A stretch of DNA of 64,000 nt. Source: Halichondria panicea (taxonomy: Eukaryota; Porifera; Demospongiae; Suberitida; Halichondriidae). Of this stretch, positions 13,750 through 59,754 are shown one piece after another. Numbering within the stretch: position 1 is the stretch's first letter; each line of letters begins with the position of its first letter. Both the position numbers and the translations under genes were made by a program. Under the pieces are notes generated by a model. That model was not told the origin of the DNA. It was given only the letters and a program-made list of their open reading frames with translations, and did not search any database. The stretch covers positions 5,777,566 through 5,841,565 of the forward strand of contig NC_087386.1 in the NCBI RefSeq assembly GCF_963675165.1, in the 5' to 3' direction.

Positions 13750-16700
13750 ATGGCTACAAGAAGTGACCTTGATGCTCTGGTGGTCCAGGTGGAAGGATTG
13801 GGTCTAGAGGAGAACCAAGCTGGCTCAGGGGCTTATGGCTGTGTCTTTAGAGTGACGGTGAATGGAAGACACTGCATTGCTAAGAAGCTTCACTCCATAT
13901 TGCTCCAAGAGCGATCCCTTGGACAGAGGGAGAGCATTGTGACAAAGTTCAGAAATGAATGTCATATTCTGAGTGTTTTACATCACCCCAACATAGTAGG
14001 TTTCGTTGGAGTCCATTACGGCCGCAATAAGAACGACATCAGTCTAATAATGGAGAGGCTTCATTCCGACTTGGCTGATTTCGTTGAAACCCATCGAGAC
14101 ACGAATATCGCCACTAGAATCCATATCCTGTATGATGTATCCAAAGGCCTTCACTATCTTCACTCTCTGACCCCTTCCCTCATCCATCGTGACCTCACTG
14201 CTCCCAACATCCTGCTCACTGAGGACCTCACTGCCAAGATCGGAGACCTGGGTGTCTCCAGGTATGTTTGCAAAGGAAAATGTTTTTTAATAGACAAAAT
14301 GAGATTTACTTAATGTGGGAAAACAAAGGCAGACATGTAAAACCTAATGTTCATTTACAGGTATGTTGATCTGGAGAGGTTGACTCATGTTCTGACAAAT
14401 ATCCCGGGAAATCCAACCTACATGCCTCCCGAGTGTCATGAGGAACGGCCCACCTACACTACCAAGCTGGACATCTTTTCATTCGGTCATCTCATCATTC
14501 ACACTGTTATCGGTGATTTCCCTAAAGTATACAACATACCTCGAAGTGATCGCAACTATTTAAAATATCTAAATGGGGGAAAGGAAGAGCTCATGCGTCG
14601 AAGCACTGCTGTCCATGACAAAATGGGTGTCACACATGATCTTTATCCTCTTGTTGTTAGCTGCCTCCATGACCGACCTCAACAGAGACCATCAGTTGAC
14701 GAAGTGATTGTCTCACTCAGAAAGCTGTGTCTACAGCACCCCAGGATGGTACGTGAGTGAGTGGGTGGAGGTATCAAATGTGCATTGTCAGCTTATATAG
14801 TGTTAGTGTCGACTGTATGCTGGTACTTCTGTGTGGGTGGCTATAGAATCTTGAACAGTATATAACATGTACATACAATTTTTGTCATTCCATCTTTTGT
14901 GTGTGTTTACTGAGAGTGTATTTTCTCCCAGGAATTTGTGGATGCTTATAAGACGGGTGATGTGGGTGTGGTTCTGGAGCTACTGGAGTGTGGGGCTGAT
15001 CCCAACCAGGCAGACAAGGTGAGGGGAATACTGTCTACAGTGCCAATATGTCCGTTGGTTGATGATATTGTCTCTACAGGATGGTGCTCTTTACTGGGCT
15101 AGTGACAATGGACATGATGAGATAGTGAGGGTCCTCTTAGCAGCCAAGGCTACAGTCAACACTCAGAACAAGGTTGGTTTTGTTTTTTAAACACATTCTG
15201 TTTACATTAATATCGTTTTCCTCCTATGTACAGTCAGGAGAGACCCCTCTTTGGACTGCCAGTTTTGATGGTCACCAGAAATGTATGGAGCTTCTAATCG
15301 ATTCTGGGGCCAATGTTGATGTGCCCGAAGAGGTGAGTGTAAGTAGCTGTACACACATCTCAGATGCCACTAGCCACAGAGCCTCTGTTGACCTGGTCCA
15401 TTAGACACCAGAGCTAGTCATGTTTGTGTAGAGAGCACTGGTAGTTAGTGTACCGAGGTACGACACGCATCTCGTGATCTATTCAAACAATTTTTACGTT
15501 CTTTTTGATATAATGTGTTCCCAACAATAACTCTGTTATTCTGTGACTAAGGCTCAAGGGTAGTATAGTTTAGACCTAGAGGTAACTGTTTATGTCGCTG
15601 AACCCGTAAACGTCATCACAATGGAATATTCAATTAAAAAACAATGTCGTACCTCCTCTGCCCTGACATTAGTGTAGATAGTCATGTGATATTGTATGAG
15701 TGATATTGTGTAATGAGTGGATCTGTACTATCTTGACTCTGTACAGGATGGAACCACAGCATTGTGGGTAGCTGCTCAGAATGGTCATGTGAGGGCAGTG
15801 GAATTGTTGATTGCTGCCAAAGCTAGAGTTGACATTCAAAATAAGGTGAGATTTACTAGAGTAGTGGATTGAGTAGTGGATTAGCTGGTCCAGTTGCGGG
15901 TTAGTGTAAAAGCTGGAATGCGGAATAGAACGAAAAATGGAATGACTAAAAAGAGAGCTGCTGATGGTGTTCTTAGTCTTAAATACTTGTGCTACAGAAG
16001 CCTTTTATAGACACAAAGCTAATTTTAGAAGACTATTACTATAGGAGTAAAAAGTAGACTGAGTATAATTATAGTAGCAACATTGAACATTACAAATACA
16101 CATAATTATACGTGTCTATAGACTTAGCGAAGTAATTATGTTGTGCCCAAAGTAAGGTGGAGTGTGAAGTCTATAGCTATAGTTTTATATACAGGACACT
16201 CCAAAGCTATACCTTTCTTCTATCTGCATGCCTGCAAAGTTTTGGCCCTTGGTGAAACTTTAAACAATTTGTGCGTGTTGAAGAGACACACTGACCAAGC
16301 ATTTTGCCATTGATTTCTGAACACATTGGGTTGTGGAGTCAGCAAATTCCACATTTATACTCTCAACAATGAAACTGTTATCTCAATATCTACCACTGTG
16401 CAACAGTGTGTGTAAGTTGTTGATCCTCTTTCCAATAACAGGTGTCATGTGATGATTACAGCCAGCTACATGTTCCGTTCCATATCTGCATTCCAGCTTT
16501 TACACTAACCCTCCAGTTGCTGTTATACATAATTATAATTATGGTTTATGGTCTATATAACACAGGACAACCAGACAGCTCTGTATGCATGTAGCCAGTA
16601 ACAACAGCATCGTGATCTCTCTTTTAATTGCATTCCAATTAATCTTTTTTACATTGGTTTTCAATGTAGTGTGTTCCCTACAATAACTCTATTATTCTGT

Positions 16701-19684
16701 GACTAAGGCTCAAGGGTAGTATAGTTTAGACATAGATCTAACTGTTTCCGTCGCTGAACCCCAGTGAACCCTATTCAGTTAGGAGATATGCTTGCTACAA
16801 ATGTTGAGAGCACTGCACCTTTCATATACATCTGGACGAGTTCTAACCAGGACCTCAGCTGGAGAAACACTATAGCTAGCCATAGAGACCTTGAGCAACG
16901 TACAGAGCTAGCTAAACAGCTAGTTTTACAAGCGTTCTACAGGTCTATAGAGTTTGTCGTGACAAGGTCGCGGTTAAGGTTACAGTATACTAATTGCTCA
17001 TGAATGATTCATAAGATATTTATTTCTCATCACAACGTTATATTTGTAACTTGCAACGATTATCAATGGAAAGAGAACATGGAACAATGCTAGCTACAAT
17101 AATAACTCAGAGTTTATATGTCGTGTAATCCAATGAAGTGGTCTGAGGTCAGCTGGAAAAACTGAGTATTTTGTCGTCAAATTTTGTTGACTGCATAGCT
17201 TCTAGGTTGTCTTTCTGACCAGTATTCGATGCCTGAAGACTTACTGGAGGGCGACTCGAAGAGATCTTGTTCATAGAGACCTTACAGCAAAAAATATATC
17301 CTTGTTACTATACTCTACAGTCGCTATATTAGCCTACAAAAACAGCTAGAAAAATAGCCGTAACTTTGTTGTAACTTACTCTCTTGGGAAAAACTCTTCG
17401 AGTCACCCTGCCCCTTTATTCGTATAATAAGAAACAGCAGAGTATACGGTAAGGAGGGGTTTCCTGGTGCCTGGAATTAACGCAGAGTAACCATTGCCAC
17501 ATGAGAGCCATTTTACTAGCTGAACTACATTGAACACCCACGCAGATTTGAGCGTGGGTGGAACAGTATACCGTAACCTTAACTACCAGCTAAACAAACG
17601 TCATCACAAATGAAGATTCAATTAAATAAGTGTCGTACCTCTTCTGCCCTGACATTAGTGTAGATAGTCATGTGATATTGTATGAGTGATAATATGATTG
17701 TGTAATGAGTGGATCTGTACTATCTTGACTCTGTACAGAATGGAACCACGGCATTGTACATGGCCTGTAGGAATGGTCACTGTGGAGTTGTTAGAATGTT
17801 GTTGGAGGCCAAGGCTGACGTTCACAACAAGAATAATGTGAGTCACGCTGCATGGTGGTCTTTGTGTACTCTGCTGATTCCACGGTTGAGTGTGTGTACT
17901 GTCACCTCTGTGTCAGTCTCGTTCCTAGGCCGCTTTTTTTGAAGGGGGAAAAGGCCTGGTGTCCATTGCTTGGGTGTTAGTGCGCATGGTAATCGTGCAC
18001 TAATGTAAAACTTTTGCAAACTAGTCCGTTTACTAGGAATATGTTCCGTAATACGTACTTCCATACTGAAGCTATGGCTTATGCCCTCTATTGCGTTGGC
18101 CAAGAAAGCTGGTACACTTAGTCTGAAGTCTGAGGCCAGTAGTCTCTAGTTCTACGATGGTCGTATAGTTGTCTTCTCAAGCAGCAGTTAGAAGTACCAT
18201 AGGAAGCATGCACAAAGACTTGCTATAGCCAGTCCTTCCAAGCTCAGACATTCCGACCATACGACTGTCGTGAAGTAGACGAGAGGCTCTTCTGGCTTCA
18301 GACTAGTGTGCAAGCCTTCTTGATCAACACAATAGAAGCACGGTAGATAGATGGAAAAGAAGGGGATTACCCATATTTTACAGCAAAACTAAGTGCATGC
18401 GCACTATCAGTAGACACCAGGCCGCATTTTCCTCCCTTCCATTCCATACAAAAGAATCGGCCTGGGAACGAGGCTACCTCTGTGTATGAGTGGACTGAGT
18501 AGTGGAGAGTGTACAATTAGCTGGTCCAGTTGCTGTGATATATAATTATATGGTTTATGGTCTATAACAGGACAACCAGACAGCTCTGTATGCAGCCAGT
18601 AATCATGGACATGATGAGATAGTGAGGGTCCTCTTAGCAGCCAAGGCTACAGTCAACACTCAGGAGAAGGTTGGTTTTGTTGTACAAATACATTTCCCAC
18701 AACATGCTGTTTACATTGTTTTCCTCCTATGTACAGGAGGGACGGTCCCCTCTTTGGACAGCCAGTTTCAGTGGTCACCAGAAATGTATGGAGCTCCTAA
18801 TCGATGCTGGGGCCAATGTTGATGTACCTCAACAGGTGAGTGTAAGTATCTGTACACACATCTCAGAGGCCACTAGCCACAGAGCCTCCCCATGTTCTGT
18901 TGATCTGGTCCATTATACACCAGAGCTAGTCATGTTTGTGTAGAGAGCACTGGTAGTTGGTGTACCGAGGTACGACACGCATCTATTCATACGTTGTTTT
19001 ATATAATGTGTTCCCAACAATAACTCTGTTATTCTGTGACTAAGGCTCAAGGGTAGTATAGTTTAGACCTAGATCTAACTGTTTCCGTTGCTGAACCCGT
19101 AAACGTCATCACAATGGAATATTCAATTCAAAAACAATGTCGTACCTCCTCTGCCCTGACATTATTGTAGATAGTCATGTGATATTGTATGAGGTGATAT
19201 TGTGTAATGAGTGGATCTGTACTATCTTGACTCTGTACAGGGTGGAGGCACTGCGCTGATGGTAGCTGCTCAGAATGGTCATGTGAGGGCAGTGGAATTA
19301 TTAATTGCTGCAAAAGCTAAAATTGACATTCAACAGAAGGTGAGATTTACTACTTGTCTGTTAGTAATTATTTGGATCTGTACACAGAACGGAGCCACAG
19401 CATTGTACATGGCCAGTCAGAATGGTCACTGTGGAGTTGTTAGAATGTTGTTGGAGGCCAAGGCTGACGTTAAAATCAAAACTAATGTGAGTCACGCTGC
19501 ATGATTGTATATAATTATGATACTGTATATCACCATGGCAACATTAAATCCAGTGGTTTTGTGATAAATTCCTTATTTCCCTTCATCACTAACTGCTCAC
19601 ATACCCACTATACAGAACGGACGTACTGCCTATGATGTGGCTAGTAGGAAAGGACATACTCAAGTGTGTGAACTACTACACTGA
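13750..19684 (+). CDS. Kinase-ankyrin receptor-like gene 1 (TKL-type kinase + 10 ANK exons)
   Basis: Exons: 13750-14261, 14361-14748 (kinase, 300 codons), then ANK exons 14932-15018, 15080-15172, 15234-15332, 15747-15845, 17739-17837, 18571-18669, 18737-18835, 19241-19339, 19388-19486 and 19616-19684 (TGA). All junctions keep frame and give ~613 residues. Kinase features: glycine loop GSGAYG (25-30), Lys45/46 in IAKKLH, Glu70, HRDL (146-149) with Asn153, DLG (166-168) in place of DFG, MPPE, DIFSFG and the C-lobe RP in DRPQQRPS. The key catalytic residues are present, so an active Ser/Thr/Tyr kinase is likely. No signal peptide or membrane segment is seen; a cytoplasmic sensor-kinase is inferred. 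The second ANK exon (15080) is two codons short. If the intron after the kinase is not spliced, a kinase-only product ends four codons later (MVRE, stop at 14758). Confidence 0.88.
16978..17578. mobile_element. TTAA-flanked MITE, copy c
   Basis: Same termini as copy a, with TTAA at 16974-16977 and 17579-17582. It sits at the equivalent position of kinase-ANK gene 1, in the intron before the C-type ANK exon, so it was inherited with the block. Confidence 0.75.
17914..18476. mobile_element. TAGCCTC MITE (long form), copy b
   Basis: Flanked by CCTCTGTGT at 17905-17913 and again immediately right of 18476. The left terminus is decayed (CAGTCTCGTTCC) and the right terminus GGGAACGAGGCTA is intact. 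It occupies the same intron as copy a. Confidence 0.65.
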
Positions 19685-19947: not shown

Positions 19948-20463
19948 TTATATAGGTGCTTGATTCTCAATCACATCTTGAGATAGGAATCCCACTTGTA
20001 GTAGATAAGAGATGACAGCATGATGATCACATGACACAGCTGTAGAGGAAATACAATCACGAATATAATTATAAGGAATTCAAAAAAAGACAATAATTAT
20101 TACCGCAAATAAATCTAATAACCAGCTCAACTTCTACAGCTATAGGGTATAATATGTTTCCTCGATCACCATCAGTAATGCAAATACAAAAAGATTTCCA
20201 AGGTTACCATAGATACACAGCCAAACTGACTTCCCTCACTATTCCGTAGAGGGGACTCAAACAAAGATCTACAAACAGACAGCTAGCTTCAACATGTATT
20301 AACACACACGCACCCTCTGTAAAGGAATACTCCATCTCTCACCATAATGAAGAGGTGTCTGATTGTCTGTGTCCTCAATATTAACATCTGCTCCCCTCTT
20401 CACAAGTAGTTTCACCATGTTCAGGTTGCCACGGTCACAGGCTCAGTGAAGAAGACCCATCCC
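19948..20463 (-). pseudogene. ACBD6-like ankyrin exons, nonsense-mutated copy
   Basis: The - strand exon 20463-20343 (121 nt) encodes the ankyrin repeat with ACDRGNLNMVKLLVKRGADV but carries TGA in place of the Trp of LLHW. The last exon, 20039-19948, has the same net 33-nt in-frame deletion seen in the copies at 35.1 and 56.5 kb. The pair lies 3' of COLGALT copy 2 and tail-to-tail with kinase-ANK gene 1. Confidence 0.65.
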
Positions 20464-21498
20464 CTGTATCATGAAATGCATCTCTATATACAACAATCTA
20501 GCGTTAATTTGTTGTAAGTTCGGACAATCCAAACTAGCATGGTTATAGTTCAAGGAAATTAGACAGCAATATTCTTACTTTTAGACTACTGTCAGCTGAT
20601 TATAAGGTGTGCCTTATTTATGGTGTTGCACTGAACTACTTGTAAGCAAAGATTGGACTAACGAGATACGGACATTGCGTATAATAATAGACTGTATATC
20701 TCCAGAGCTCTCACATGAGGTCCCAGTTTGGTGTGATCCGATTGGCCTCTTCCAGCACTCAAACACGACATCATCCTCCAGAATCAGGATTTGATCCAGA
20801 CCCTCTGTCATCATCTGGGGAGCAAGAGAGGTACAGTAAGACTTGTCTATACTGGTCACCCTTGGACAGACCAACAGTGGCTATTATAACAAGATGCTCA
20901 GTAGAGCATTCATCTCGTGCGTTGACATAACGGACACGCAATGAACTTTATTGTAATGACTTTAACATATGGGGATTCTACAAAGCAACGATTGGATTGA
21001 TTAGAGAAAACAGTGTTTTTTGTCACCTTTGAAGACAAGTAGTTTATTATTTTTCAACCACTGTCTCATTATCAGTTAAAGCAATTCATGAAAGTGTCTA
21101 GTTCGCTCAAACAGCTAATGTTTGTGTCCGCACACAGGAGACTTAGGAGCACATTAACCTGGCTGTACTATTATAGAGGGTGACCACATTAGACAGGTTT
21201 CACACAGTTACAAGTGCCCACAATGCAACAGGTAGCAATACTTTCTGTACACATCAAGTATCCACTAATGACCACTCACCTGCTGCCATATCGTGTGGTG
21301 ACTAAGGAAACAGCTGACCTCTCCAAAGGTCATAGATCGTTCTCCCCAAGGGTCCTTCCAGCCAGAAAGGTACTTGATGCCCAGACTGTCCAGGTAGCTC
21401 TGATTCAACTGTCTGTAGTGGCGAGGGATAAAATAAACAAAAGAGGTTCTTTTAAATATGAGTTCCCCACCACATCCTTGTGTATCAATTAGTGTGTA

Positions 21499-21633: not shown

Positions 21634-21943
21634 AGCCACTATCTAAAACCTTACTCCATACGATGTATAATTATTAATTTTCTCTCACCTTCCATCGACA
21701 GCATCAAAGAGGGTGTAGTTGAAGTTGAGCTCGTCCAGGCTTAAAATCATCCGGTTCCTTCTTTCTGGCCTCCGTACTAGCCCAATCATAAACACCTACC
21801 AAATATTGTTTGGAAATTATCAGTGAACTTTTATGATTTCCGTACACATACAACATAACTGTAATAGTAGAGACAGCTTACCGCGTCCAACCCCAAGTTG
21901 TTCTTGACAGGGGGTGGTCTGGAGATGTGCTGACTGTACAATA

Positions 21944-24466
21944 TAGGGGGGTGGTCCACTGTGTGGGGGGAGACAACACGCACACTAATGCAGTATAGGG
22001 GGTGGTCCACTGTGTGGGGGGAGACAACACGCACACTAATGCAGTATAGGGGGGTGGTCCACTGTGTGGGGGGAGACAACACACACACTAATGCAGTATA
22101 GGGGGGTGGTCCACTGTGTGGGGGGAGACAATACACACACACTAATGCAGTATAGGGGGGTGGTCCACTGTGTGGGGGGAGACAACACACACACACTAAT
22201 GCAGTATAGGGGGGTGGTCCACTGTGGGGGGGGGAGACAACACACACACTAATGCAGTATAGGGGGGTGGTCCACTGTGTGGGGGGAGACAACACACACA
22301 CACACTAATGCAGTATAGGGGGGTGGTCCACTGTGTGGGGGGAGACAAGATACACACTAATGCAGTATAGGGGGGTGGTCCACTGTGTGGGGGGAAACAA
22401 AACACACACTAGTGCAGTATAGGGGGGTGGTCCACTGTGTGGGGGGAGACAACACACACACCAATGCAGTATAGGGGGGGTGGTCCACTGTGTGGGGGAG
22501 ACAATACACACACTAATGCAGTATAGGGGGGTGGTCCACTGTGTGGAGGGAGACAATACACACACTAATGCAGTTGGTCCACTGTGTGGGGGGAGACAAG
22601 ATACACACCAATGTAGTATAGGGGGGTGGTCCACTGTGTGGGGGGAGACAAGATACACACCAATGCAGTATAGGGGGGTGGTCCACTGTGTGGGGGGAGA
22701 CAAGATACACACACTAATGCAGTATAGGGGGGGGTGGTCCACTGTGTGGGGGGAGACAATACACACACTAATGCAGTATAGGGGGGTGGTCCACTGTGTG
22801 GGGGGAGACAAAACACACACACTAATGCAGTATACGGGGGGGTGGTCCACTGTGTGGGGGAGAAAATACACACACTAATGCAGTATAGGGGGGTGGTCCA
22901 CTGTGTGGAGGGAGACAATACACACACTAATGCAGTTGGTCCACTGCGTGGGGGGAGACAAGATACACACCAATGCAGTATAGGGGGATTGTCCACTGTG
23001 TGGGGGGAGACAATACACACACTAATGCAGTATAGGGGGGGTGGTCCACTGTGTGGAGGGAGACAATACACACACTAATGCAGTTGGTCCACTGCGTGGG
23101 GGGAGACAAGATACACACTAATGCAGTATAGGGGGGTGGTCCACTGTGTGGGGGGAGACAACACACACACTAATGCAGTATAGGGGGGTGGTCCACTGTG
23201 TGGGGGGAGACAATACACACACTAATGCAGTATAGGGGGGTGGTCCACTGTGTGGGGGGAGACAACACACACACTAATGCAGTATAGGGGGGTGGTCCAC
23301 TGTGTGGGGGGAGACAACACACACACTAATGCAGTATAGGGGGTGGTCCACCGTGTGGGGGGAGACAAGATACACACTAATGCAGTATAGGGGGGTGGTC
23401 CACTGTGTGGGGGGAGACAACACACACACTAATGCAGTATAGGGGGGTGGTCCACTGTGTGGGGGGAGACAATACACACACTAATGCAGTATAGGGGGGT
23501 GGTCCACTGTGTGGAGGGAGACAATACACACACTAATGCAGTTGGTCCACTGCGTGGGGGGAGACAAGATACACACCAATGCAGTATAGGGGGATTGTCC
23601 ACTGTGTGGGGGGGAGACAACACACACACACTAATGCAGTATAGGGGGGTGGTCCACTGTGTGGGGGGAGACAACACACACACACTAATGCAGTATAGGG
23701 GGGTGGTCCACTGTGTGGGGGGAGACAATACACACACTAATGCAGTATAGGGGGGTGGTCCACTGTGTGGGGGGAGACAATACACACACTAATGCAGTAT
23801 AGGGGGGTGGTCCACTGTGTGGGGGGAGACAACACACACACTAATGCAGTATAGGGGGGGGTGGTCCACTGTGTGGGGGGAGACAAGATACACATACTAA
23901 TGCAGTATAGGGGGATTGTCCACTGTGTGGGGGGAGACAATACACACACTAATGCAGTATAGGGGGGGGTGGTCCACTGTGTGGAGGGAGACAATACACA
24001 CACTAATGCAGTTGGTCCACTGCGTGGGGGGAGACAAGATACACACCAATGCAGTATAGGGGGATTGTCCACTGTGTGGGGGGAGACAAGATACACACCA
24101 ATGCAGTATAGGGGGGTGGTCCACTGTGTGGGGGGAGACAACACACACACTAATGCAGTATAGGGGGGTGGTCCACTGTGTGGGGGAGACAACACGCACA
24201 CTAACGCAGTATAGGGGGGTGGTCCACCGTGTGGGGGGAGACACCACGCACACTAATGCAGTATAGGGGGGTGGTCCACTGTGTGGGGGGAGACAACACG
24301 CACACTAACGCAGTATAGGGGGGTGGTCCACCGTGTGGGGGGAGACACCACGCACACTAATGCAGTATAGGGGGGTGGTCCACTGTGTGGGGGGGACACA
24401 ACACACACACTAATGCAGTATAGGGGGGTGGTCCACTGTGTGGGGGGAGACAACACACACACTAAT
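21944..24466. repeat. Minisatellite, ~52-bp unit, ~48 copies, in COLGALT copy 2 intron
   Basis: Same unit and position as 7195-10244, between COLGALT exons 6 and 7, but with its own variants: AGATACACAC types, a shortened unit in which GTATAGGGGGG is missing (CAGTTGGTCC), and a higher-order pattern repeating those shortened units at ~22575, 22936, 23085, 23540 and 24010. This shows independent homogenisation after block duplication. Confidence 0.9.
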
Positions 24467-26902
24467 GGATACACAGTCAAGGATGTTGTGGGAACACTAT
24501 TAAAAGAGCCCCTCTATTATGACCTGCACTAATTATACCCGCCCACACACATTGTTCACAGCAACAATGGAGCTACATCAGCACACACTGAGATGGCTAC
24601 TGGCTATACTAACAAAGAGCAGATGACACCGCAGCCTTAAGGGGGAGAGGCTTACCAAGGTTTTCCAGCTTAAAGTTGAGGAAGTCCTGAGCAGCGTGGT
24701 CCAGGCTCTCATAGTCCTCTGGTTTGACCATGAACCCAAACACCTCGGTGTTCAGAATGTGCATAGGCAGATCTACAGTGGAGGGAAGGAGTTAATATCG
24801 TATTCAGAGCTAAATTGACAGGAAAATAGGACTGTCCAACACAGTACCTGCCATTTTTGCCGAGTATGCCAAGTGTGTGACCTTATCCATGGGTCCAGTG
24901 AACCCGTCCAGTGCCGGCCAGTGTTGGAGCCTCTCTGACCCCGCCCACCTCAGGTCAACGAGGAGGGCGGAGTGAACCACAGGGACTGGGATACAGCCCA
25001 CCTGCGTCCCTTGGAGGATAGGGATATAGTCAGGGGTACGTTTGTAGTAGCCCTGAGGGGAAACAGTCAAAAGATGAAAACGCATTATTTGGTCAAGTTG
25101 TCAGACACAGGTCACACTTGATTGACACTTGACATTGGGAATGACTTAATTTGTACACAGTGCATTGGCACAGTACAGCTTGTGGGCATGTTCATGATAG
25201 AGAGGCAGACTTTACACAAAAGTACAGTGCGACAGTATGGTATAATCCATGAAATGGAGTACCCTCCACTCCACTAGATCTAGACCTCCTTAGCTCAACT
25301 CACCCGGCTGTCTATTCCACACCAGAAGTTGGAGTAAGCAGCATCCTTGCCCGACTTTAGCATCGGAGCCACTATTGCCCTGTGTGTGGTGTGTGTGTGA
25401 TGTGTGCAGTGTGTGGGTGTGGGGGGGACCATACAATGTTGACTATGTAATCAATGTGAGAGTGTTGATGAATGGTAATAGTGACTAAATGCTGTGTGTC
25501 TAAGATAATAAGAGCATTTTTTGAGACAATGGCTTTAGCCTACACGCTGTATCTATCGCTATAGCAACACACAGGAAAAGGTCAGCTGACTCTCAGAGTA
25601 CGTTGTCTGACTCTCACTCTATTACAGACAAATCAAATAGTTCAACAATGGAGAAAAAATAAACAGTAATCCAATGTCAGCCATAACTAAGGACCAGGCA
25701 CTCACAGAGAGAGGAAACTCTTAATGCTTTACACTGTACATATCTGAGCAGAGCTACAGTGTGGTCACCCTCTAATAATACAGACAGGTTAAACAGCCCC
25801 AAAGTCTCCATAGCATGTGTTTCAATCAACCTGTGTTACTGCCCAAGGGGGATCCCCTCCCTATGGACTGTACACGCACTGACTTACCTTTGCTGATCCA
25901 TCAGAATCCGTAGTGTCCTGTTGTTCACCAGAAAGTTGTCACAGTCTAGCCGCTGGATAAACAACAATTGTATAGTTAATCTGAGCTAGATACTGTGGAT
26001 ACCAAAATTGCAATAACTAAAACTGTATCTACTACTGTCTTGGGCAGACTAACAGTGGTTGAAATAAAGAGGTGGCCTGCTAACACAGGTCCAAACACAT
26101 GCTATGGAGGCTTTGGGCCCCATTAACCTGGCTGTATTATAGAGGGTGGCCTGCTTACAGGGTGACCACTACAGACAGGTTTCACTGTATCATAATGGTA
26201 CGTCTAGAGATAGCCTAGCTAGGTCCTTACAATAGATGGGCCAGGAACGAGGCTAGAGATGGTCACACTGATAACTCACAAAGAGGTAGTCTGCCCCTGA
26301 ACGCCTGGCCGCCTCCAGACCTTCCTGTCTCAGCTGGGCAACATGGATGAACCTCTCATCATGCTCCTCGAAAGGGTCAATGTTCGGATACAGCCACTCG
26401 TCTGATGACTTCAAGTCCACAGATTTGTACACGAGCTTAACGTTTTCTGCCCACTCAGCAAGTATTGCCGTGGTGTTGTCACCGTTATGGTCTGTTCTGA
26501 TCCTACAGTGTAGTTAATGATATTCATAGGTGGGTGGGGCTGGTATGAACACAATAGGGTTTTGTTTGCATGCAAGAAACAGAAATAGAAATTCTGCAAA
26601 CTATTACATACAATGCATCTGATATAGAGTAACAACCTCTAATGATGATGCATAGTGGCAGGTGCAACTTACCACAATGAAATCCTGTCTTTAGGATAGT
26701 CCAAGTTCTCTAGATAACCGAAAAAGTTGGGTAGCATGTGAGCTGAATTTCTAGCCAGAATAGCAAGGAAGACACTCGGCAGAACTTCAGCTGCTTCTAA
26801 CGAGGAGTCTCCATTGTCCAACGTATATACAGACGGTATGGCAGTCACTAGGAGAGCTATGCACACGGCAAGTGCAATCCAGTGTATCGAGAGACTATTC
26901 AT

Positions 26903-27181: not shown

Positions 27182-30100
27182 ATGGCTACAAGAAGTGACC
27201 TTGATGCTCTGGTGGTCCAAGTGGAAGGATTGAATCTAGAGGAGAACAAAGCTGGCTCAGGGGCTTATGGCTGTGTCTTTAGAGTGACGGTGAATGGAAG
27301 ACACTGCATTGCTAAGAAGCTTCACTCCATATTGCTCCAAGAGCTATCCCTTGGACAGAGGGAGAGCATTGTGACCAAGTTCAGAAATGAATGTCATATT
27401 CTGAGTGTTTTACATCACCCCAACATAGTAGGATTCGTTGGAGTCCATTACGGCCGCGGTAAGAACGACATCAGTCTAATAATGGAGAGGCTTCATTCCG
27501 ACTTGGCTGATTTTGTTGAAACCCATCGAGACACGAATACCGCCACTAGAATCCATATCCTGTATGATGTATCCAAAGGCCTTCACTATCTTCACTCTCT
27601 GACCCCTTCCCTCATCCATCGTGACCTCACTGCTCCCAACATCCTGCTCACTGAGGACCTCACTGCCAAGATCGGAGACCTGGGTGTCTCCAGGTACGTA
27701 TTTTTTTGCAACAAAGGATTTTTTAAATGACATGTGGGAAAATAAAGGCAGACATGTAAAACCTAATATTCATTTGCAGGTATGTTGATCTGGAGAGATT
27801 GACTCATGTTCTGACAAATATCCCGGGAAATCCAACCTACATGCCTCCCGAGTGTCATGACGAACAGCCCACCTACACTACCAAGCTGGACATCTTCTCA
27901 TTCGGTCATCTCATCATTCACACTGTTATCGGTGACTTCCCTAAAGTCTCTTACTTTACTCCTGAGGTTATCAAGCACGTGGATGATGGGAAAATGGAGC
28001 TCATGCGTCGAAGCACTGCTGTCCATGGTGACAAAATGGGGGAGAAACACGCTCTTTATCCTCTTGTTGTTAGCTGCCTCCATGACCGACCTCAACAGAG
28101 ACCATCAGTTGACGAAGTGATTGTCTCACTCAGAAAGCTGTGTCTACAGCACCCCAGGATGGTACGTGAGTGAGTGGGTGGAGGTATCAAATGTGCATTG
28201 TCAGCTTATATAGTGTTAGTGTCGACTGTATGCTGGTACTTCTGTGTGGGTGGCTATAGAATCTTGAACAGTATATAACATGTACATACAATTTGTGTGA
28301 TTCCATCTTTTGGGTGTGTTTACTGATAGTGTATTTTCTCCCAGGCATTTCTAGATGCTTGTGAGACGGGTGATGTGGGTGTGGTTCTGGAGCTACTGGA
28401 GTGTGGGGCTGATCCCAACCAGGCAGACAAGGTGAGGGGAATACTGTCTACAGTGCCAATATGTCCGTTGGTTGATGATATTGTCTCTACAGGATGGTTG
28501 GACTGCTCTTCACTGGGCCAGTAGGAATGGACATGATGAGATAGTGAGGGTCCTCTTAGCAGCCAAGGCTACAGTCAACACTCAGCCCAAGGTTGGTTTT
28601 GTTGTACAAACACATTTCCCACAACATGCTGTTTACATTGTTTTCCTCCTATGTACAGTCGGGACAGACCCCTCTTCGGACAGCCAGTTTCAATGGTCAC
28701 CAGAAATGTATGGAGCTCCTAATCGATGCTGGGGCCAATGTTGATGTACCTCAAGAGGTGAGTGTAAGTAGCTATATACACATAGCCTCGATTCCAGGCC
28801 AATTAAAGTATGGCCTGGTACTTATTGCATGGTAGCATGTGATAGTTTATTCTCCAGAATCTGGGGAATCCCCTCTTTTCTTTCTCTCTGTCTATGTACA
28901 TCAGCTTAGCTCTCTATTGCGTTGTTCCAAAAGGCTTTCACACTAGTCTAAAGCCAGAAGAGGCTCTCATCCACCTCTATGACGGCTGTATGGTCAGGAT
29001 GTCTTAGCTTAGATCTGTACAGGCTATGGGAAGTGTATGGTGCCTCTTGACTGCTTCTTGCGAAGACAGCCTGGCTATAGGACCATCGTAGACGTAGATG
29101 AAAGCCTCCAAACTAGTGTTCAAGCCTTCTAAGCAATAGATGCAGCTTCACGGAACTCAGTATGGAGATAAAATATTACGGAACATATTCTTAGTAAAGG
29201 GACTAAATTACGGGTACTAATGTTTTACGTTCGTAGTACGATTACCCTTATTCTGAAGGTACCAGGCCGTATTTTAATGCGGCCTGGAATCGAGGCTACT
29301 ATACACACATCTCAGAGGCCACTAGCCACAGAGCCTCCTCATATTCTGTTGACCTGGTCCATTAGACACCAGAGCTAGTCATATTTGTGTAGATAGCACT
29401 GGTAGTTGGTGTACCGAGGTACGACACGCATCTCGTGATCTCTCTTTTAATTGCATTCCAATGTAATGCACAATAACTTTGACTAAGGTTCAAGGGTAGT
29501 ATAGTTTAGACCTAGAGGTAACTGTTTATGTCGCTGAACCAGTAAACATCATCAGAATGGAATATTCAATTAAAAAACAATGTCGTACCTCCTCTGCCCT
29601 GACATCAGAGGAGGTACGACTAGCGTGCCTCGATTAGGCTAATTACCTCTGCAATACTGTTGAGCGTGGGTGTAACCACGCCTCGATTATCCGCCCACGC
29701 TCAACGGTATTGCAGAGACAATTAGCCTAATCGAGGCACGCGTGTCGTACCTCCTCTGCCCTGACATTAGTGTAGATAGTCATGTGATATTGTATGAGTG
29801 ATATTGTGTAATGAGTGGATCTGTACTATCTTGACTCTGTACAGGATGGGACCACAGCGTTGTGGGTAGCTGCTCAGAATGGTCATGTGAGGGCAGTGGA
29901 ATTGTTGATTGCTGCCAAAGCTAGAGTTGACATTCAAAATAAGGTGAGATTTACTAGAGTAGTGGATTGAGTAGTGGATTAGCTGGTCCAGTTGCGGGTT
30001 AGTGTAAAGCTGGAATGCGGAATAGAACGGAATATGGAATGACTAAAAAGAGAGCTGCTGATGGTGCTCTGTATTTTTTTAGTGTAGTATGACTTAAATA

Positions 30101-37410: not shown

Positions 37411-37544
37411 ATACACCGCGGTTACTGAATACCAATTATTTGGGCATGCGCAGTAGGAGTATGTGTCATATTATGACCAATGAACACAAAGAAAATTAAT
37501 ACTCCCCTTTTTCGAGTTATTACACTTTCCAGATTGTGGCAATG

Positions 37545-40430: not shown

Positions 40431-40439
40431 ATAAGTAAC

Positions 40440-47310: not shown

Positions 47311-48230
47311 ATAATTATTTTCTTACCTGTCGTCCTGGCCCTTTAATTGGTCCATCGAATTTCCAGGAATAATTTTTATGATACTTATACAATGGGGCCC
47401 CATGCAGTTATCTTGTTTAATTGATGCCAATGGAGCCACCAAACTTGGAAAGTTGAAACCAACACAATAAATGCAAGCTGCATAAACTCTTTTCTTACCC
47501 CTGTTGTCTGTTGGTCTACCCAATTTCCAGAAACTGGAAACTTTAATAGATCAACAACAGGTTTTCAATGCTAAAGGAGCCACCAAACATTGAAATGAGT
47601 ACATGAAATCAAACTGCGTGAACTATTTCTTGCTTGTCGTCCAAAGACGTTAGTCCATCCAGTTTGCATAAACAGGTAACCTTATGGACCAACGAGCAGG
47701 TTTTCCAGTTTAATGATGCCAAAGGAGACACCAAGCTTTGAAATGAGCTCACACCAACCTGGAACACATTAAATTATGCATTCAAGCTGCGTGAACTATT
47801 TTCTTACTTGTCGTCCAGGCCGTTGGTCCACCCAATTTCCAGAAAAAGGAAACCTTATGGACCAACAAGCAAGTTTTCTTTTAATTGATGCCAATGGAGA
47901 CACTAAACTTTGAAAAATGAGCTGTGACACCAGCCTGGAACACATTATTCAAGCTGCGCGACTATTTTCTTACTTGCCGTCCAGGTCGTTGGTCCACCTA
48001 GTTTCCAGAAACAGCCTCCTATGGACCAACAAGCAGGTTTTCCTGATGCCAACGAACCCCTGCAAGCTTTGAAATGAGCTGCCCACCTAGAACACTTTAT
48101 GCAAGCTGGGTGAATTCTTTTACCAGTCGTCCAGGCAGTTGGTCCATGCACCTAATTTTAATAGGCCCCTTAGGACCAACGAGCAGGTTTTAATGATGCC
48201 TGGAGCAATCAAGCAAGTGTAACATGCAAC
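47310..48230. repeat. Right subterminal tandem array, inverted relative to left array
   Basis: About five or six units of the same ~180-bp family read in complement (CTTACTTGTCGTCCAGGC, GTTGGTCCACC, TGATGCCAA..GGAGACAC). With 38700-40430 it makes long inverted flanks around the transposase and protease genes. Confidence 0.75.
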
Positions 48231-49002: not shown

Positions 49003-52000
49003 ATGACTACTGGTACCCCTGAATACAAAGCCATCTGTAGCTGCAGAGTGGAGCTGACAGAGAAGCTCTCTGCATGCATCCAAGATGTAGCTAAATACTT
49101 ACGTCAGAGTGGAGAACTGACTAACAGCCAATGCCAGACAATCGTCCGCCATGAAGACGGTGCTGAGAAGCTCATGGATATGATCATTGTCGACGTCAAA
49201 GCGCCAAAAACCACATTGGACGCTTTTACCGACTTAGTCACAGCAATAAAAAACAGTGGGAACAAACACTTCCTTACATTTGTCAAGGATGTGATTGAAG
49301 AGAAACGAAAAGAGTTCTATAGGGAATTGCTCACAGTTCCACCAAGTATGTGATATAAATAGTTATTAATGGTGATCATTTGAATTTTCCCATGTTCACA
49401 GGTTTCGTGGCATCTCAGAAATATGACGTCTTCATCAGCTACAGCCGTGAGGCTGACACTATGCGCACAGTGGACACTCTTTTGCGTCCTCCACTGGAAC
49501 AAAAAGGCCTCACCGTGTTTGTAGACAGAGATGGCGTTCGTCCTGGGGGCAGATGGCGATCTGAGATTGCCTCCGCTATCAAAACTTGCAAAGCCTTTAT
49601 CTGTGTGCTCACTAAACGCTATATGAGGTCCTTGTACTGCAATGGAGAGTTGTACGAAGCAGAAGCTCTTCGCAAGAGTATGTTCCCAGTGGTGTGCGAG
49701 AAGGGATGGGAAGGTGTGCCTGGAGGTGCTCCTGTGACGGAGATAGTGAATGAGGTTCAGTATGTCTCACTGGACAGGGAGACGGACCTGGAAAGACTGT
49801 TCCAAAGGATCAAAGGTCAGTCAGTGCATTCTCACAGTGTTACTGTCTCCACGTAGCAAGTACCTTGATGATATTGAGCTTATATTGAGTAATCATTTTG
49901 CAGAAACTGTGACATCTTTATCACCTGTTGCTGTAGCTCCAGGCTCGTCTAGTCTACCCACTGACCAGGCTGGTAAGATGTGCTATATACTTGATTAGCA
50001 GTTTATTTGTTGTGTAAAATGTTTGTATTGTATTATCCGTTTATCCCTCCTCAGGCAAATCATCCTCTGTAATGCAAGATGTGTGGAAGGAGACTGGAGT
50101 GAGTGATCAGTAGAATTATAACCAAGTATAAGAATAATTAAGATTAGGTACATAACATCAGTCATAGCATGAACAAAGTAAGGTTGTTCCACCCCCCCCC
50201 CCCCCTCTCCACTGATAGCATTCACTAGTCTGTTGATAGGAGGTGGGGTTATCACAGCTTTGCAATGAAACTTATAATTATTATGGGACGAAATAAGACA
50301 TCACTAACGTTTATTCATCCATTCATAGCATGAACAAAGTAAGGTTCCCTCCCCCCCTCTCCACTGAGTTTTTACAGCGCCGCTAAAGATTTTCAGTGGC
50401 GCACAAATAGAACAAGAAAAAACCATAATTCCAGTTTGGCACTTATAATATTATTTAGAGTGGTGTTTAGCAGTACTATAGTATAGCTGTTTCCACGAGG
50501 CTATCAGATCAATTGTACATGTAGCCTCGAATTAAGGATGCGTTATTTCTAATTATGTAAGCGCTAGCAACTTGGCGCTTAATTGTTATTGAACTTGGCC
50601 CTTCAATTAGAGTGGTGCTGTAATTAAATAACTCACTTATTGTGCTATGAAACTTGGGCAATATAGGCTTCAATTGGTCTCCACTTGCACTTTGTTTGAG
50701 CCCCATTCAATCTTTTACTTGCTTGTCCTTCCTGCATATTATATTGTAGAGTTATTACAGGGGGTCATACAGGATTTTAAAGTAGAGGGGGGAATATAAA
50801 AAAAGTCAACTGCATGTTATTATAATTATGCCTACAAACTGTTTAGCACACCACGATGCTAATATAGCACACGCTCAGGGTCTAAAAAAGCACACCTCTT
50901 TTCTCTGTGTAGTTGTGTAAACTGTATGCTGGTACTTCTGTGTGTGTGGCTATAGAATCTTGAACAGTATATAACATGTACATACAATTTTTGTCATTCC
51001 ATCTTTTGGGTGTGTTTATTGATAGTGTATTTTCTCCTAGGCCGCATTTCTGGATGCCTGTAAGACGGGAAATGTGGGTGTGGTTCTGGAGCTACTGGAG
51101 TGTGGGGCTGATCCCAACCAGGCAGACAAGGTGAGGGGAATACTACAGTGCCAATATGTCCGTTGGTTGATGATATTGTCTCTACAGAATGGTTGGACTG
51201 CTCTTTTCTGGGCCAGTATGAATGGACATGATGAGATAGTGAGGGTCCTCTTAGCAGCCAAGGCTACAGTCAACACTCAGATCAAGGTTGGTTTGTTGCA
51301 TTTCCCACAACATGCTGTTTACATTGTTTTCCTCCTATGCACAGTCGGGAGAGACCCCTCTTTGGAAAGCCAGTTTCAATGGTCACCAGAAATGTATGGA
51401 GCTCCTAATCGATGCTGGGGCCAATGTTGATGTACCCAAAGAGGTGAGTGTAAGTAGCTGTACACATAGCCTCGATTCCAGGCCAATTAAAGTATGGCCT
51501 GGTACTTATTGCATGGTGATAGTGAGCATGTGATAGTTTATTCTCCAGAATCTGGGGAATCCCCTCTTTTCTTTCTTTCATATATTTTCTATCTATGTAC
51601 ATCAGCTTAGCTCTCTATTGCGTTGTTCCAGAAGGCTTTCACACTAGTCTGAAGCCAAAAGAGTCTCTCATCCACCTCTATGATGGCTGTATGGTCAGGA
51701 TATCTTAGCTTAGATCTGTACAGGCTATGGGAAGTGTATGGTCCTCTTGACTGCTTCTTGCGAAGACAACCTGGCTATAGGACCATCGTAGACGTAGATG
51801 AGAGCCTCCAAACTAGTGTTCAAGCCTTCTAAGCAATAGATACAGCTTCACGGAACTCAGTATGGAGATAAAATATTACAAAACATATTCTTAGTAAAGG
51901 GACTAAATTACGGGTACTAAGGTTTTACGTTTGTAGTACGATTACCCATATTATGAAGGTACCAGGCAGTATTTTAATGCGACCTGGAATCGAGGCTACT

Positions 52001-55000
52001 ATACACACATCTCGATCAGAGGCCACTAGCCACAGAGCCTCCCCATGTTCTGTTGACCTGGTCCATTAGACACCAGAGCTAGTCATGTTTGTCATTACAA
52101 TGGAATATTCAAGTAAAAACAGTGTCATACCTCCTCTGCCCTGACATTAGCGTAGATAGTCATGTGATATTGTATGAGTGATATTGTGTAATGAGTGGAT
52201 CTGTACTATCTTGACTCTGTACAGACTGGAACCACAGCATTGGGGGTAGCTGCTCAGAATGGTCATGTGAGGGCAGTGGAAGTCTTGATTGCTGCCAAGG
52301 CTGGAGTTGACATTCAAAATAAGGTGAGATTTACTAGAGTAGTGGATTGAGTAGTGGATTAGCTGGTCCAGTTGCGGGTTAGTGTAAAGCTGGAATGCAG
52401 AATGGAACGGAATATGGAATGACTAAAAAGAGAGCTGCTGATGGTGCTCTGTATTTTTTTAGTGTAGTATGACTTAAATACTTGTAAAAAGTGCTACAGA
52501 ATCCTTTTATAGACAGCTAATTTTAGAAGACTATTACTGTAGGAGTAAAAAGTAGACTGAGTATAATTATAGTAGCAACATTGAACATTACAAATAGACA
52601 TAATTATACGTGTCTATAGACTTAGCGAAGTAATTATGTTGTGCCCAAAGTAAGGTGGAGTGTGAAGTCTATAGCTATACAGGACACTCCAAAGCTATAC
52701 CTTTCTTCAATCTGCATGCCTGCAAAGTTTTGGCCCTTGGTGAAACTTAAACGATTTGTGCGTGTTGAAGAGACACACTGACCAAGCCTTTTGCCATTGG
52801 TTTCCACACACATTGAGTTGTGGAGTCAGCAAATTCCACATTTATACTCTCAACAATGAAACTGTTATCTCAATATCTACCACGTACTGTGCAACAGTGT
52901 GTGTAAGTTGTTGATCCTCTTTCCAATAACAGGGTGTCATGTGATGATTACAGCCAGCTACATGTTCCGTTCTATATCTGCATTCCAGCTTTTACACTAA
53001 CCCTCCAGTTGCTGTTATACATAATTATAATTATGGTTTATGGTCTATATAACACAGGACAACCAGACAGCTCTGTATGCATGTAGCCAGTAACAACAGC
53101 ATCGTGATCTCTCTTTTAATTGCATTCCAATCTTTTTTACATTGGTTTTCAATGTAGTGTGTTCCCTACAATAACTCTGTTATTCTGTGACTAAGGCTCA
53201 AGGGTAGTATAGTTTAGACATAGATCTAACTGTTTCCGTTGCTGAACCCCAGTGAACCCTATTTAGTTAGGAGATATGCTTGCTACAAATGTTGAGAGCA
53301 CTGCACCTTTCATATACATCTGGACGAGTTCTAACCAGGACCTCAGCTGGAGAAACACTATAGCTAGCCATAGAGACCTTGAGCAACGTACAGAGCTAGC
53401 TAAACAGCTAGTTACAAGCGTTCTACAGGCCTATAGAGTTTGTCGTGACAAGGTCGCGGTTAAGGTTACAGTATACTAATTGCTCATGAATGATTCATAA
53501 GATATTTATTTCTCATCACAAACTCATCACAACGTTATTTTTGTAACTTGCAACGATTATCAATGGAAAGAGAACATGGAACAATGCTAGCTACAATAAT
53601 AACTCAGAGTTTATATGTCTTGTAATCCAATGAAGTGGTCTGAGGTCAGCTGGAAAAACTGAGTATTTTGTCATCAAATTTTGTTGACTGCATAGCTTCT
53701 AGGTTGTCTTTCTGACCAGTATTCGATGCCTGAAGACTTACTGGAGGGCGACTCAGAGAGATCTTGTTCATAGAGACCTTACAGCAAAAAATATATCCTT
53801 GTTACTACTCTACAGTTGCTATATTAGCCTACAAAAACAGCGCCGTAACTTTGTTGTAACTTACTCTAGACTTGGGAAAAACTCTTTCAGTCACCTGCCC
53901 CTTTATTCGTATAATAAGAAACAGCAGAGTATACGGTAAGGAGGGGTTTCCTGGTGCCTAGAATTAACTCAGAGTAACCATTGCCAGATGAGAGCCATTT
54001 TACTAGCTGAACTACATTGAACACCCACGCAGATTTGAGCGTGGGTGGAACAGTATACCGTAACCTTAACTACCAGCTAAACAAACGTCGTCACAAATGA
54101 AGATTCAATTAAATAAGTGTCGTACCTCCTCTGCCCTGACATTAGTGTAGATAGTCATGTGATATTGTATGAGTGATATTGTGTAATAAGTGGATCTGTA
54201 CTATCTTGACTCTGTACAGGATGGAGCCACAGCATTGTACATGGCCAGTAAGAATGGTCACTGTGGAGTTGTTAGAATGTTGTTGGAGGCCAAGGCTGAC
54301 GTTCACAACAAGACTAATGTGAGTCACGCTGCATGGTGGTGTTTGTGTACTCTGCTGATTCCATGGTTGAGTGTGTGTACTACTGTCACCTCTGTGTTAG
54401 TCTCGTTCCTAGGCCGCTTTTTTCAAAGGGGGAAAAGGCCTGGTGTCCATTGCTTGGGTGTTAGTGCGCATGGTAATCGTGCACTAATGTAAAACTTTTG
54501 CAAACTAGTCCGTTTACTAGGAATATGTTCCGTAATACGTACTTCCATACTGAAGCTATGGCTTATGCCCTCTATTGCGTTGGCCAAGAAAGCTGGTACA
54601 CTTAGTCTGAAGTCTGAGGCTAGTAGGCTCTAGTTCTACGATGGTCGTATAGTTGTCTTCTCAAGCAGCAGTTAGAAGTACCATAGGAAGCATGCACAAA
54701 GACTTGCTATAGCCAGTCCTTCCAAGCTCAGACATTCCGACCATACGACTGTCGTGAAGTAGACGAGAGGCTCTTCTGGCTTCAGACTAGTGTGCAAGCC
54801 TTCTTGATCAACACAATAGAAGCACAGCACGGTAGATAGGGGGAAAAGAAGGGGATTACCCATATTTTACAGCAAAACTAAGTGCATGCGCACTATCAGT
54901 AGACACCAGGCCGCATTTTCCTCCCTTCCATTCCATACAAAAGAATCGGCCTGGGAACAAGGCTACCTCTGTGTATGAGTGGACTGAGTAGTGGAGAGTG

Positions 55001-56183
55001 TACAATTAGCTGGTCCAGTTGCTGTGATATATAATTATATGGTTTATGGTCTATAACAGGACAACCAGACAGCTCTGTTTGTAGCCTCTCACCAGGGACA
55101 TGATGAGATAGTGAGGGTCCTCTTAGCAGCCAAGGCTACAGTCAACACTCAGGAGAAGGTTGGTTTTGTTGTCATTTCCCACAACATGCTGTTTACATTG
55201 TTTTCCTCCTATGTACAGTCGGGAGAGACCCCTCTTTGGACAGCCAGTTTCAGTGGTTACCAGAAATGTATGGAGGTTCTAATCGATGCTGGGGCCAATG
55301 TTGATTTACCCAAAGAGGTGAGTGTAAGTAGCTGTACACACATCTCAGAGGCCACTAGCCACAGAGCCTCCCCATGTTCTGTTGACCTGGTCCATTAGAC
55401 ACCAGAGCTAGTCATGTTTGTGTAGAGAGCACTGGTAGTTGGTGTACCGAGGTACGACACGCATCTCGTGATCTATTCAAGCAATTTTTACGTTGTTTTC
55501 ATGTAGTGTGTTCCTAACAATAACTCTGTTATTCTGTGACTAAGGCTCAAGGGTAGTATAGTTTAGACCTAGATCTAACTGTTTCCGTCGCTGAACCCGT
55601 AAACGTCATCACAATGGAATATTCAATTCAAAAACAATGTCGTACCTCCTCTGCCCTGATATTAGTGTAGATAGTCATGTGATATTGTATGAGTGATATT
55701 GTGTAATGAGTGGATCTGTACTATCTTGACTCTGTACAGGGTGGATTCACTGCGTTGATGGTAGCTGCTCAGAATGGTCATGTGAGGGCAGTGGAAATAT
55801 TAATTGCTGCCAAAGCTAAAATTGACATTCAAGCGAAGGTGAGATTTACTATTTGTCTGTTAGTAATTATTTGGATCTGTACACAGAACGGAGCCACAGC
55901 ATTGCACATAGCCAGTCAGGAGGGTCATTGTGGAGTTGTTAGAATGTTGTTGGAGGCCAAGGCTGACGTTAATATCAAAGCTAATGTGAGTCACGCTGCA
56001 TGATTGTATATAATTATGATACTGTATATCACCATGGCAACATTAAATCCAGTGGTTTTGTGATAAATTCCTTATTTCCCTTCATCACTAACTGCTCACA
56101 TACCCACTATACAGGACGGACGTACTGCCTATGATGTGGCTAGTCAGTATGGACACACTCAAGTGTGTGAACTACTACACTGA
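49003..56183 (+). CDS. CARD-TIR-ankyrin receptor-like gene
   Basis: Exons: 49003-49345 (CARD-like), 49402-49815 (TIR), 49904-49972 and 50055-50098 (Ser/Pro linker), then ANK exons 51041-51130, 51188-51286, 51345-51443, 52225-52323, 54220-54318, 55060-55158, 55219-55317, 55740-55838, 55887-55985 and 56115-56183 (TGA). All phases fit (~606 residues). Residues ~10-100 resemble a CARD/death-fold helix bundle (YLRQSGELTNSQCQTI; GAEKLMDMI). TIR residues ~117-252 show YDVFISYSREAD, FVDRDGVRPGGRWRSEI and SLYCNGELYEAEAL; Glu197 aligns with the Glu that is catalytic in NAD-cleaving TIRs. The ANK half is homologous exon by exon with the kinase-ANK genes. I infer an innate immune adaptor or sensor; whether the TIR acts as scaffold or NADase is open. 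Confidence 0.88.
50103..51040 (+). other. Long intron joining TIR linker to ankyrin part; effector/ANK junction
   Basis: Contains a C14-16 homopolymer at ~50191-50205 and a second C/T run at ~50349. From ~50925 (CTGTATGCTGGTACTTCTGT) to the acceptor at 51040 it is near-identical to the intron after the kinase exons (14813-14931 and 28226-28344). Left of that point there is no similarity to the kinase genes. Confidence 0.7.
51467..51998. mobile_element. TAGCCTC MITE (short form), second copy
   Basis: Left end TAGCCTCGATTCCAGGCC, right end CTGGAATCGAGGCTA. Flanking CTGTACACA / CTATACACA fits a 9-bp duplication with one mismatch. Same intron position as 28783-29298. Confidence 0.7.
53464..54065. 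mobile_element. TTAA-flanked MITE, copy e
   Basis: TTAA at 53460-53463 and 54066-54069. It is in the CARD-TIR-ANK gene, in the same intron as copies a, c and d. Confidence 0.75.
54398..54965. mobile_element. TAGCCTC MITE (long form), copy d
   Basis: CCTCTGTGT direct repeats flank 54398-54965. Same C-to-D intron as the three other copies. Confidence 0.65.
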
Positions 56184-59750: not shown

Positions 59751-59754
59751 GTGA

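Follow-up and report, generated by a model that had tools for sequence, protein, structure and literature searches.

A clustered family of ankyrin-repeat genes in the sponge Halichondria panicea with a diversified predicted contact face and, in a few copies, a different candidate signaling head

Introduction

Microbe sensing in animals is usually attributed to leucine-rich-repeat, lectin, scavenger and NACHT receptors. RIPK4 and ANKK1 are animal proteins of another plan, in which a kinase is joined to ankyrin repeats. Here, we analyze a stretch of 64,000 nucleotides (hereafter the window; contig NC_087386.1, C10:5777566–5841565) from the 131-Mb genome of the breadcrumb sponge Halichondria panicea, in which one and the same array of ankyrin (ANK) exons, the chassis, lies downstream of a TKL kinase in two genes and of CARD-like and TIR exons in a third. 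An N-terminal TKL-type kinase and a C-terminal ankyrin stack liken the kinase-led genes to RIPK4 and ANKK1, as judged from gene models (RefSeq P0008); the sponge family differs by its dozens of clustered copies, its hypervariable contact positions and, in some copies, the replacement of the head. The closest sequence match of the sponge kinase in the PDB is TNNI3K.

In fungal NLRs with ANK, TPR or WD arrays, most of the positively selected ANK residues map to the concave face, and exchange of N-terminal domains occurs as well (excerpt of PMC4986451). Variable concave-face residues, changes in repeat number and combinatorial N-terminal effectors are, as far as that excerpt goes, likewise traits of those NLRs; on the other hand, the sponge genes have no NACHT in our scans, their head is joined directly to the repeats, and the host is an animal. 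Designed ankyrin repeat proteins (DARPins; excerpt of PMC1261162) also combine a constant scaffold with variable positions, of which 3, 5, 13 and 14 are common to both, whereas the sponge repeats are natural, quiet at positions 2 and 33, and variable at 1, 9 and 10 instead. The sponge Ig-TIR receptors, too, combine TIR with other modules (excerpt of PMC8242945), but the window gene has CARD-TIR and then ankyrin exons, and the window holds no Ig exon that we could find ahead of them. According to the same excerpt, ankyrin-repeat and kinase genes of H. panicea are regulated after lipopolysaccharide (LPS) treatment; those genes are not matched to the present cluster. Our searches of open-access PMC papers found none on this ankyrin family.

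Results

Three genes in the window, all on the plus strand, share the chassis. Gene 1 (13750–19684) and gene 2 (27182–34788) each have a two-exon TKL kinase ahead of ten ankyrin exons, and in the third gene (49003–56183) the same ten follow four head exons, of which the first is CARD-like, the second encodes TIR, the third is a linker and the last is short:

13750–14261, 14361–14748, plus strand: gene 1, TKL kinase head (Pfam PF07714, E 1.3e-36), ending in phase 0 at ATG/gtacgt
14932–15018 (junction exon, J), 15080–15172, 15234–15332, 15747–15845, 17739–17837, plus strand: gene 1, chassis exons 1–5
18571–18669, 18737–18835, 19241–19339, 19388–19486, 19616–19684 (stop), plus strand: gene 1, chassis exons 6–10
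27182–27693, 27780–28161, plus strand: gene 2, TKL kinase head
28345–28431 (J), 28493–28591, 28659–28757, 29845–29943, 31833–31931, plus strand: gene 2, chassis exons 1–5
32673–32771, 32839–32937, 34345–34443, 34492–34590, 34720–34788 (stop), plus strand: gene 2, chassis exons 6–10
49003–49345, plus strand: third gene, CARD-like exon (PF00619, E 6.6e-4, under the cut-off)
49402–49815, plus strand: third gene, TIR exon (PF13676, E 5.4e-19)
49904–49972, plus strand: third gene, linker exon, which also occurs in other CARD-TIR genes of the genome
50055–50109, plus strand: third gene, severed first exon of a Death-like module, with GGA/gtgagt after 50098 as the putative phase-0 donor; read-through gives VSDQ and a stop
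50110–50911, plus strand: dispersed repeat in the seam between head and chassis
51041–51130 (J, with three extra bases), 51188–51286, 51345–51443, 52225–52323, 54220–54318, plus strand: third gene, chassis exons 1–5
55060–55158, 55219–55317, 55740–55838, 55887–55985, 56115–56183 (stop), plus strand: third gene, chassis exons 6–10

In each of the three genes, J and nine ANK exons stand in identical order, open and in phase 0, with AG and GT at their boundaries, and the array begins with the N-cap exon J, continues with two copies of a four-repeat unit and closes with a C-cap. The first-pass annotation of the window, made from the sequence without database searches, had described three genes with ten homologous ANK exons in the same order and near-identical introns; the chassis DNA is indeed 93–95% identical over thousands of bases, exons and introns alike. 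It had placed the onset of homology between the third gene and gene 1 at ~50925/14813, close to the values obtained here by BLAST (50915/14806) and by eye (50912/14802), and had rightly called the effector halves unrelated, as they match distinct Pfam families (PK_Tyr_Ser-Thr/Pkinase versus TIR_2/TIR). Its CARD assignment fared less evenly: the window domain itself stays below the PF00619 cut-off (20.1 versus 23.9 bits), whereas its 77%-identical relative P0058 passes it (25.8 bits).

Sequence profiles and the standard numbering of ankyrin repeats underlie the CARD and surface assignments, the placement of the exons on that numbering being our own step. The TIR motif YCNGEL aligns with WCLDEL of RPP1 (S-x-W/Y-C-x-x-E-L), and its Glu is the candidate catalytic residue for a possible NADase activity. 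An acceptor-like CAG precedes the CARD-like exon, so that an upstream exon is possible; the RefSeq relative P0001 has an Ig-like stretch (under the Pfam cut-off) ahead of CARD-TIR, and Ig-type exons of this kind were not found 5' of the CARD exon by tblastn in the window. Downstream of TIR, CARD-TIR genes elsewhere vary: two end just past the TIR domain, and P0049 continues into a cysteine-rich tail.

A DNA search of the genome with the J-to-A2 region gave 41 matches; only the best 40 of 298 candidates were scored, and the counts of chassis are therefore lower bounds. The results show at least 37 copies with the junction region, which excludes a chance resemblance among the window genes; the other four matches are three partial pieces and the second piece of one copy. 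All of the 37 but a copy on C13 lie within C10:5.05–6.86 Mb. Their heads comprise 32 TKL kinases (28 of the 30 loci L009–L038, plus C10:5520049, C10:5581321, C10:6418686 and C13:4015832), two CARD-TIR heads, one Death-Death head, one possible Kelch head and one copy, C10:5493945, with no recognized head within the ~4 kb examined. The two CARD-TIR-led copies are the window gene and C10:6371188 (minus strand), 540 kb apart and on opposite strands. The Death-Death copy (C10:6855819, locus L062, C10:6855700–6860700, minus strand) reaches the Pfam cut-off for Death exactly in one stretch (E 1.2e-4), which another stretch resembles at ~37%, and its break falls inside the last kinase exon. At C10:5293842 (L061), Kelch profiles were matched, PF24681 above the cut-off (58.5 bits), and of the kinase only the last 28 residues are left close to the junction; the Kelch region is possibly a fourth head type, and the protein search returned no RefSeq model for this copy. 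Thus, the interchangeable effectors proposed for the window exist in the sense that one chassis carries different heads, with two further non-kinase cases and Death-Death in a RefSeq model, but exchange is rare, 32 of the 37 heads being kinases.

Strict patterns for the beta-3 lysine, HRD and DLG (DxG) occur in 27, 28 and 27, respectively, of 30 kinase loci (28 of L009–L038, plus L040 and L064), where some misses are cut or diverged loci; most kinase heads are accordingly predicted to carry the motifs of an active kinase. At locus L036, the kinase lies ~1 kb from the chassis. Like NLR/STAND proteins, the genes have an N-terminal signaling domain and a C-terminal repeat array. A central NACHT domain, said to be lacking in the first-pass annotation, was found neither in Pfam scans of the genes nor, within C10:5.05–6.86 Mb, among the 102 scored matches (265 candidates) of a genome search for NACHT; NB-ARC was not searched genome-wide.

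Where do the copies differ? We kept exons of 99 nt that were stop-free, preceded by AG, followed by GT or GC, and identical to one of four templates at 18 or more of 33 residues. In the resulting 134 intact ANK exons (types A1–A4, with 34, 45, 36 and 19 exons), the most variable ankyrin positions were 5, 1, 14, 13, 9, 10 and 3, which include DARPin positions 3, 5, 13 and 14; these seven and this subset were picked post hoc, whereas the six DARPin positions and the held-out positions used below were not. Mean entropy was 1.17 bits at the six DARPin positions versus 0.36 elsewhere (permutation p 0.004, positions preset), and the same positions were variable in all four repeat types (entropy correlations 0.40–0.57). 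With surface positions picked from the other three types, replacement divergence (pN) was 0.27–0.34 at the surface versus 0.03–0.05 for the rest.

Its ratio to silent divergence (pN/pS; values given in the Discussion) was not uniformly above 1, and the surface was therefore compared with introns and between codon positions. In first-unit exons (33 loci supplied, exons off the pattern left out), surface pN was 4.9 times the intron distance in A1 (n = 20, interval 3.5–7.4) and 5.5 times in A2 (n = 32, 4.1–7.1); the intron distance at the same loci was 0.04–0.05, and surface pS in those exons was 0.26 (A1) and 0.19 (A2). As a mean of the types, diversity at the first, second and third codon position was 0.376, 0.320 and 0.283 at the surface and 0.058, 0.026 and 0.100 in the rest. 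In A2 and A3, surface codon diversity peaked at positions 1 and 2; elsewhere, the peak was at position 3. These data, which compare paralogues within one genome and involve no recombination-aware site model, point to a replacement excess at the predicted binding-face positions. Since variation is highest at the likely contact residues, it is the scaffold that the copies have in common and not, as first proposed, one recognition surface.

Could a head and the ankyrin exons form one protein? For the kinase and Death-Death heads, RefSeq holds annotation models of such proteins. P0008 (617 aa, "ankyrin repeat and protein kinase domain-containing protein 1-like isoform X3") comprises kinase, J and ANK, and P0013 (627 aa, "ankyrin-3-like isoform X2") comprises a hydrophobic N-terminal part, Death-Death, the last kinase residues and the same chassis, its head joining the common junction exon in phase 0 at CAA/GTGAGT. 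The hydrophobic N-terminus of P0013 ends in 2A-like GDVESNPGP, which could yield two products or have a signal function; 2A-like signal sequences reportedly have a precedent.

For CARD-TIR, the seam itself is informative. At five CARD-TIR loci (C10:6.45–6.58 Mb), the exon after the linker resembles GKSSSVMEDVCKKTGVSDHQLDQEIPE and opens a C-terminal module whose label "Death-like" reflects a weak Pfam match only (E 0.089); a similar module lies 3' of an Ig-like stretch at C13:4028649. In the window gene, this exon is severed after GTGAGTGATCA (50109), while it runs on in relatives L041, L051, L053, L055, L056 and L057. The next ~0.8 kb (50110–50911) is a dispersed repeat with at least 100 matches listed (the best 40 of 555 candidates were scored). 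The 3' end of the repeat is common to six other copies and in the window adjoins the chassis intron (50912, matching 14802), and five other copies extend further left than the window copy, which identifies the right edge as the end of the element and the left edge as a join inside the exon. Two simpler descriptions, plain intron sequence and a repeat flush at both edges, were rejected, the former by the genome search that identified the repeat and the latter as only the right edge is flush. The 5' truncation and fixed 3' end tentatively suggest LINE-type copies; a longer relative of the repeat has a 3.2-kb interior stretch with no open frame above 107 codons.

The head introns on the TIR side are otherwise in phase 1, and its junction with the chassis is in phase 0 only through the donor GGA/GTGAGT inside the short last head exon, in former coding sequence of the Death-like exon. 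Of the exon shuffling inside a phase-0 intron that had been suggested, the phase of the proposed donor stands, but plain intron shuffling is not supported: the TIR-side break lies inside the Death-like exon with a repeat in the seam, and the Death-Death break inside the last kinase exon. A single step, in which the repeat inserted into the chassis intron and the Death-like tail and the kinase exons between were deleted, may account for the seam; alternatively, recombination between repeats may have produced it. Death-domain relatives of P0013 lie 1–5 kb downstream of CARD-TIR genes (C10:6450957, 6504679, 6527193, 6581533, C13:4031128), so that the Death-Death and CARD-TIR heads may share one source neighborhood.

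The seam is alike in both TIR-led genes, with the repeat 98% identical, and their J exons are identical. Over the 290-codon CARD-TIR head, the two differ by 5 replacement and 4 silent changes; of the 165 codons in five more ANK exons (A1, A2, A4, the second A2, and A3 paired with one of its two counterparts), 26 differ by replacement and 7 silently, and 18 of the 26 fall at the seven variable positions. The ANK exons are open and the splice sites kept in all portions compared, which did not include the last exons of the second gene; the latter also has an extra A3 exon and another exon that is six bases longer by insertion. A tree of 34 of the 37 copies (17 of 31 forks open, midpoint root) places the pair in one clade (96/94) among kinase-led copies, adjoining one kinase-led copy (86/90). 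This placement, together with the common repeat, indicates one replacement of a kinase head, followed by duplication.

The window and the genome hold further sequences related to the family. The remainder of a fourth chassis is as follows:

732–5930, plus strand: fourth chassis, whose kinase head (C10:5775675–5776568) and junction exon precede the first base of the window
732–830, 2672–2770, 3519–3617, 3685–3783, 5465–5563, 5617–5715, 5862–5930, plus strand: its exons (approximate); 5465–5563 has no AG immediately 5'

The chassis of gene 1 (16566) and of the TIR gene (53058) also share a relic ANK exon, which is interrupted by a stop codon in frame. On the minus strand, near-identical copies of another ankyrin frame, GNLNMVKLLVKRGADVNIEDTDNQTPLHYG, lie 3' of the three chassis (~20140–20500, 35245–35600, 56640–57000), indicating that whole gene pairs were duplicated. 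Arrays of a 52-bp satellite near the chassis (7192–10245, 21942–24467, 57608–58184 and 59754–59922; ~59, 49 and then fewer copies) are possible substrates for unequal exchange within the cluster. Stretches 12809–13720 and 36581–37483 are 95% identical, a weak match to an AMP-binding enzyme lies on the minus strand at 36764–37147 (E 5.4e-5, under the cut-off), and the tandem repeats at 39087–39968 and 47609–48042 (periods ~184 and 173 bp) are similar in sequence but oppositely oriented. TKL kinases form a large family in this genome, with at least 136 matches (131 of 802 candidates scored) that include some on C1, C3, C8, C12, C16 and C17, among them clusters on C17 (71–73% identity), C1 and C3; RefSeq P0012, on another contig, joins such a kinase to ankyrin repeats.

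Discussion

On balance, we favor the view that these genes are a clustered receptor-like family, in which a signaling head precedes a stack of ~10 ankyrin repeats with a constant scaffold and a diverse contact face, and in which a few heads were replaced. Judged from their residues, each copy probably recognizes a different partner, and an immune role is plausible. Ligand binding would cluster or free the head, leading to kinase trans-phosphorylation or to assembly of TIR/CARD or Death folds, and would feed other outputs where CARD-TIR or Death-Death has replaced the kinase, while the contact codons would diversify under selection. The CARD-TIR head would have been joined once, by a rearrangement in which the Death-like tail and the kinase exons were lost, the dispersed repeat stayed behind in the seam, and GTGAGT in former coding sequence became the donor into the ankyrin exons (50098/51041).

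Several observations weigh against this reading. Held-out surface pN/pS for A1–A4 is 0.67, 2.08, 4.56 and 0.92 (remaining positions: 0.50, 0.35, 0.25, 0.28), thus above 1 in only two of four types, and at the six preset DARPin positions, of which 2 and 33 are quiet, it is 0.74, 1.09, 3.74 and 0.51 (outside them: 0.58, 0.90, 0.51, 0.52). Silent differences are also raised at the surface codons of A1, A2 and A4, three of the four types, and in A1 the third position varies as much as the first. Exchange between divergent ANK exons is likely part of the cause of this raised silent change. It is nevertheless improbable that birth-and-death and gene conversion among ankyrin exons, with no selection for new binding, produced the variation: exchange does occur, as the near-identical introns and the exons in common indicate, but the variable positions coincide across the four repeat types, surface diversity in A2 and A3 is highest at codon positions 1 and 2, and surface pN is ~5 times the intron distance. 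At least 3 of the 32 kinase heads have stops within the matched stretch, and intactness was a precondition of the exon count. For the CARD-TIR gene in particular, the donor motif also occurs in ANK-less relatives that read through it, and RefSeq protein searches (covering 333–1060, 337–1073 and 160–507 residues) returned no CARD-TIR-ANK model, so that the fusion rests on frame, splice sites and the second copy with the same seam. Consequently, the kinase-ANK genes could be real and the TIR swap a neighbor effect of rearrangement, the CARD-TIR gene ending at VSDQ and its ANK exons being stranded, which we consider possible but doubtful. An in-frame stop does lie just past the donor, itself old coding sequence, and two other CARD-TIR genes do terminate just past TIR; however, the same searches returned no model of the window gene ending at VSDQ either, the frame fits across the splice (a one-in-three chance), the donor is a GTGAGT whose preceding A is also used in P0013, and both TIR-led genes have open ANK exons whose differences fall on likely contact positions. 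Gene conversion from kinase-led copies, on the other hand, could keep even stranded exons open.

An assembly error joining the modules is very improbable, even in a repeat-rich cluster with satellite arrays, as the same CARD-TIR/repeat/ANK seam occurs at two sites that are separated by 540 kb, lie on opposite strands, have diverged by ~2% and carry distinct ANK residues. If the clustered family does recognize diverse partners, these need not be microbial. Diversified contact residues in a tandem cluster would equally suit allorecognition between sponges, whose tissue compatibility reactions are known, or recognition of a fast-evolving endogenous partner. We regard this as unlikely, given that immune and cell-death signaling commonly uses TIR, CARD-like, Death and TKL kinase heads. 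In this species, LPS regulates ankyrin-repeat and kinase genes (excerpt of PMC8242945), though the genes concerned are not matched to the cluster.

A bolder proposal, which we make tentatively, is that an early-branching animal has an NTPase-free, NLR-like combinatorial system of dozens of DARPin-like sensors with selected contacts and at least three exchangeable heads, one of them acquired through a repeat-leaving rearrangement and a donor from a severed Death-like exon. Its logic would be that of fungal and plant NLRs, minus the ATPase switch. The putative natural DARPin-like binders would be available for ligand hunting, and the rearrangement behind a proposed receptor-head swap is still legible in the DNA. 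In this sponge, intracellular ankyrin kinases seem to have expanded into a diversified repertoire, with the output changed in a few copies.

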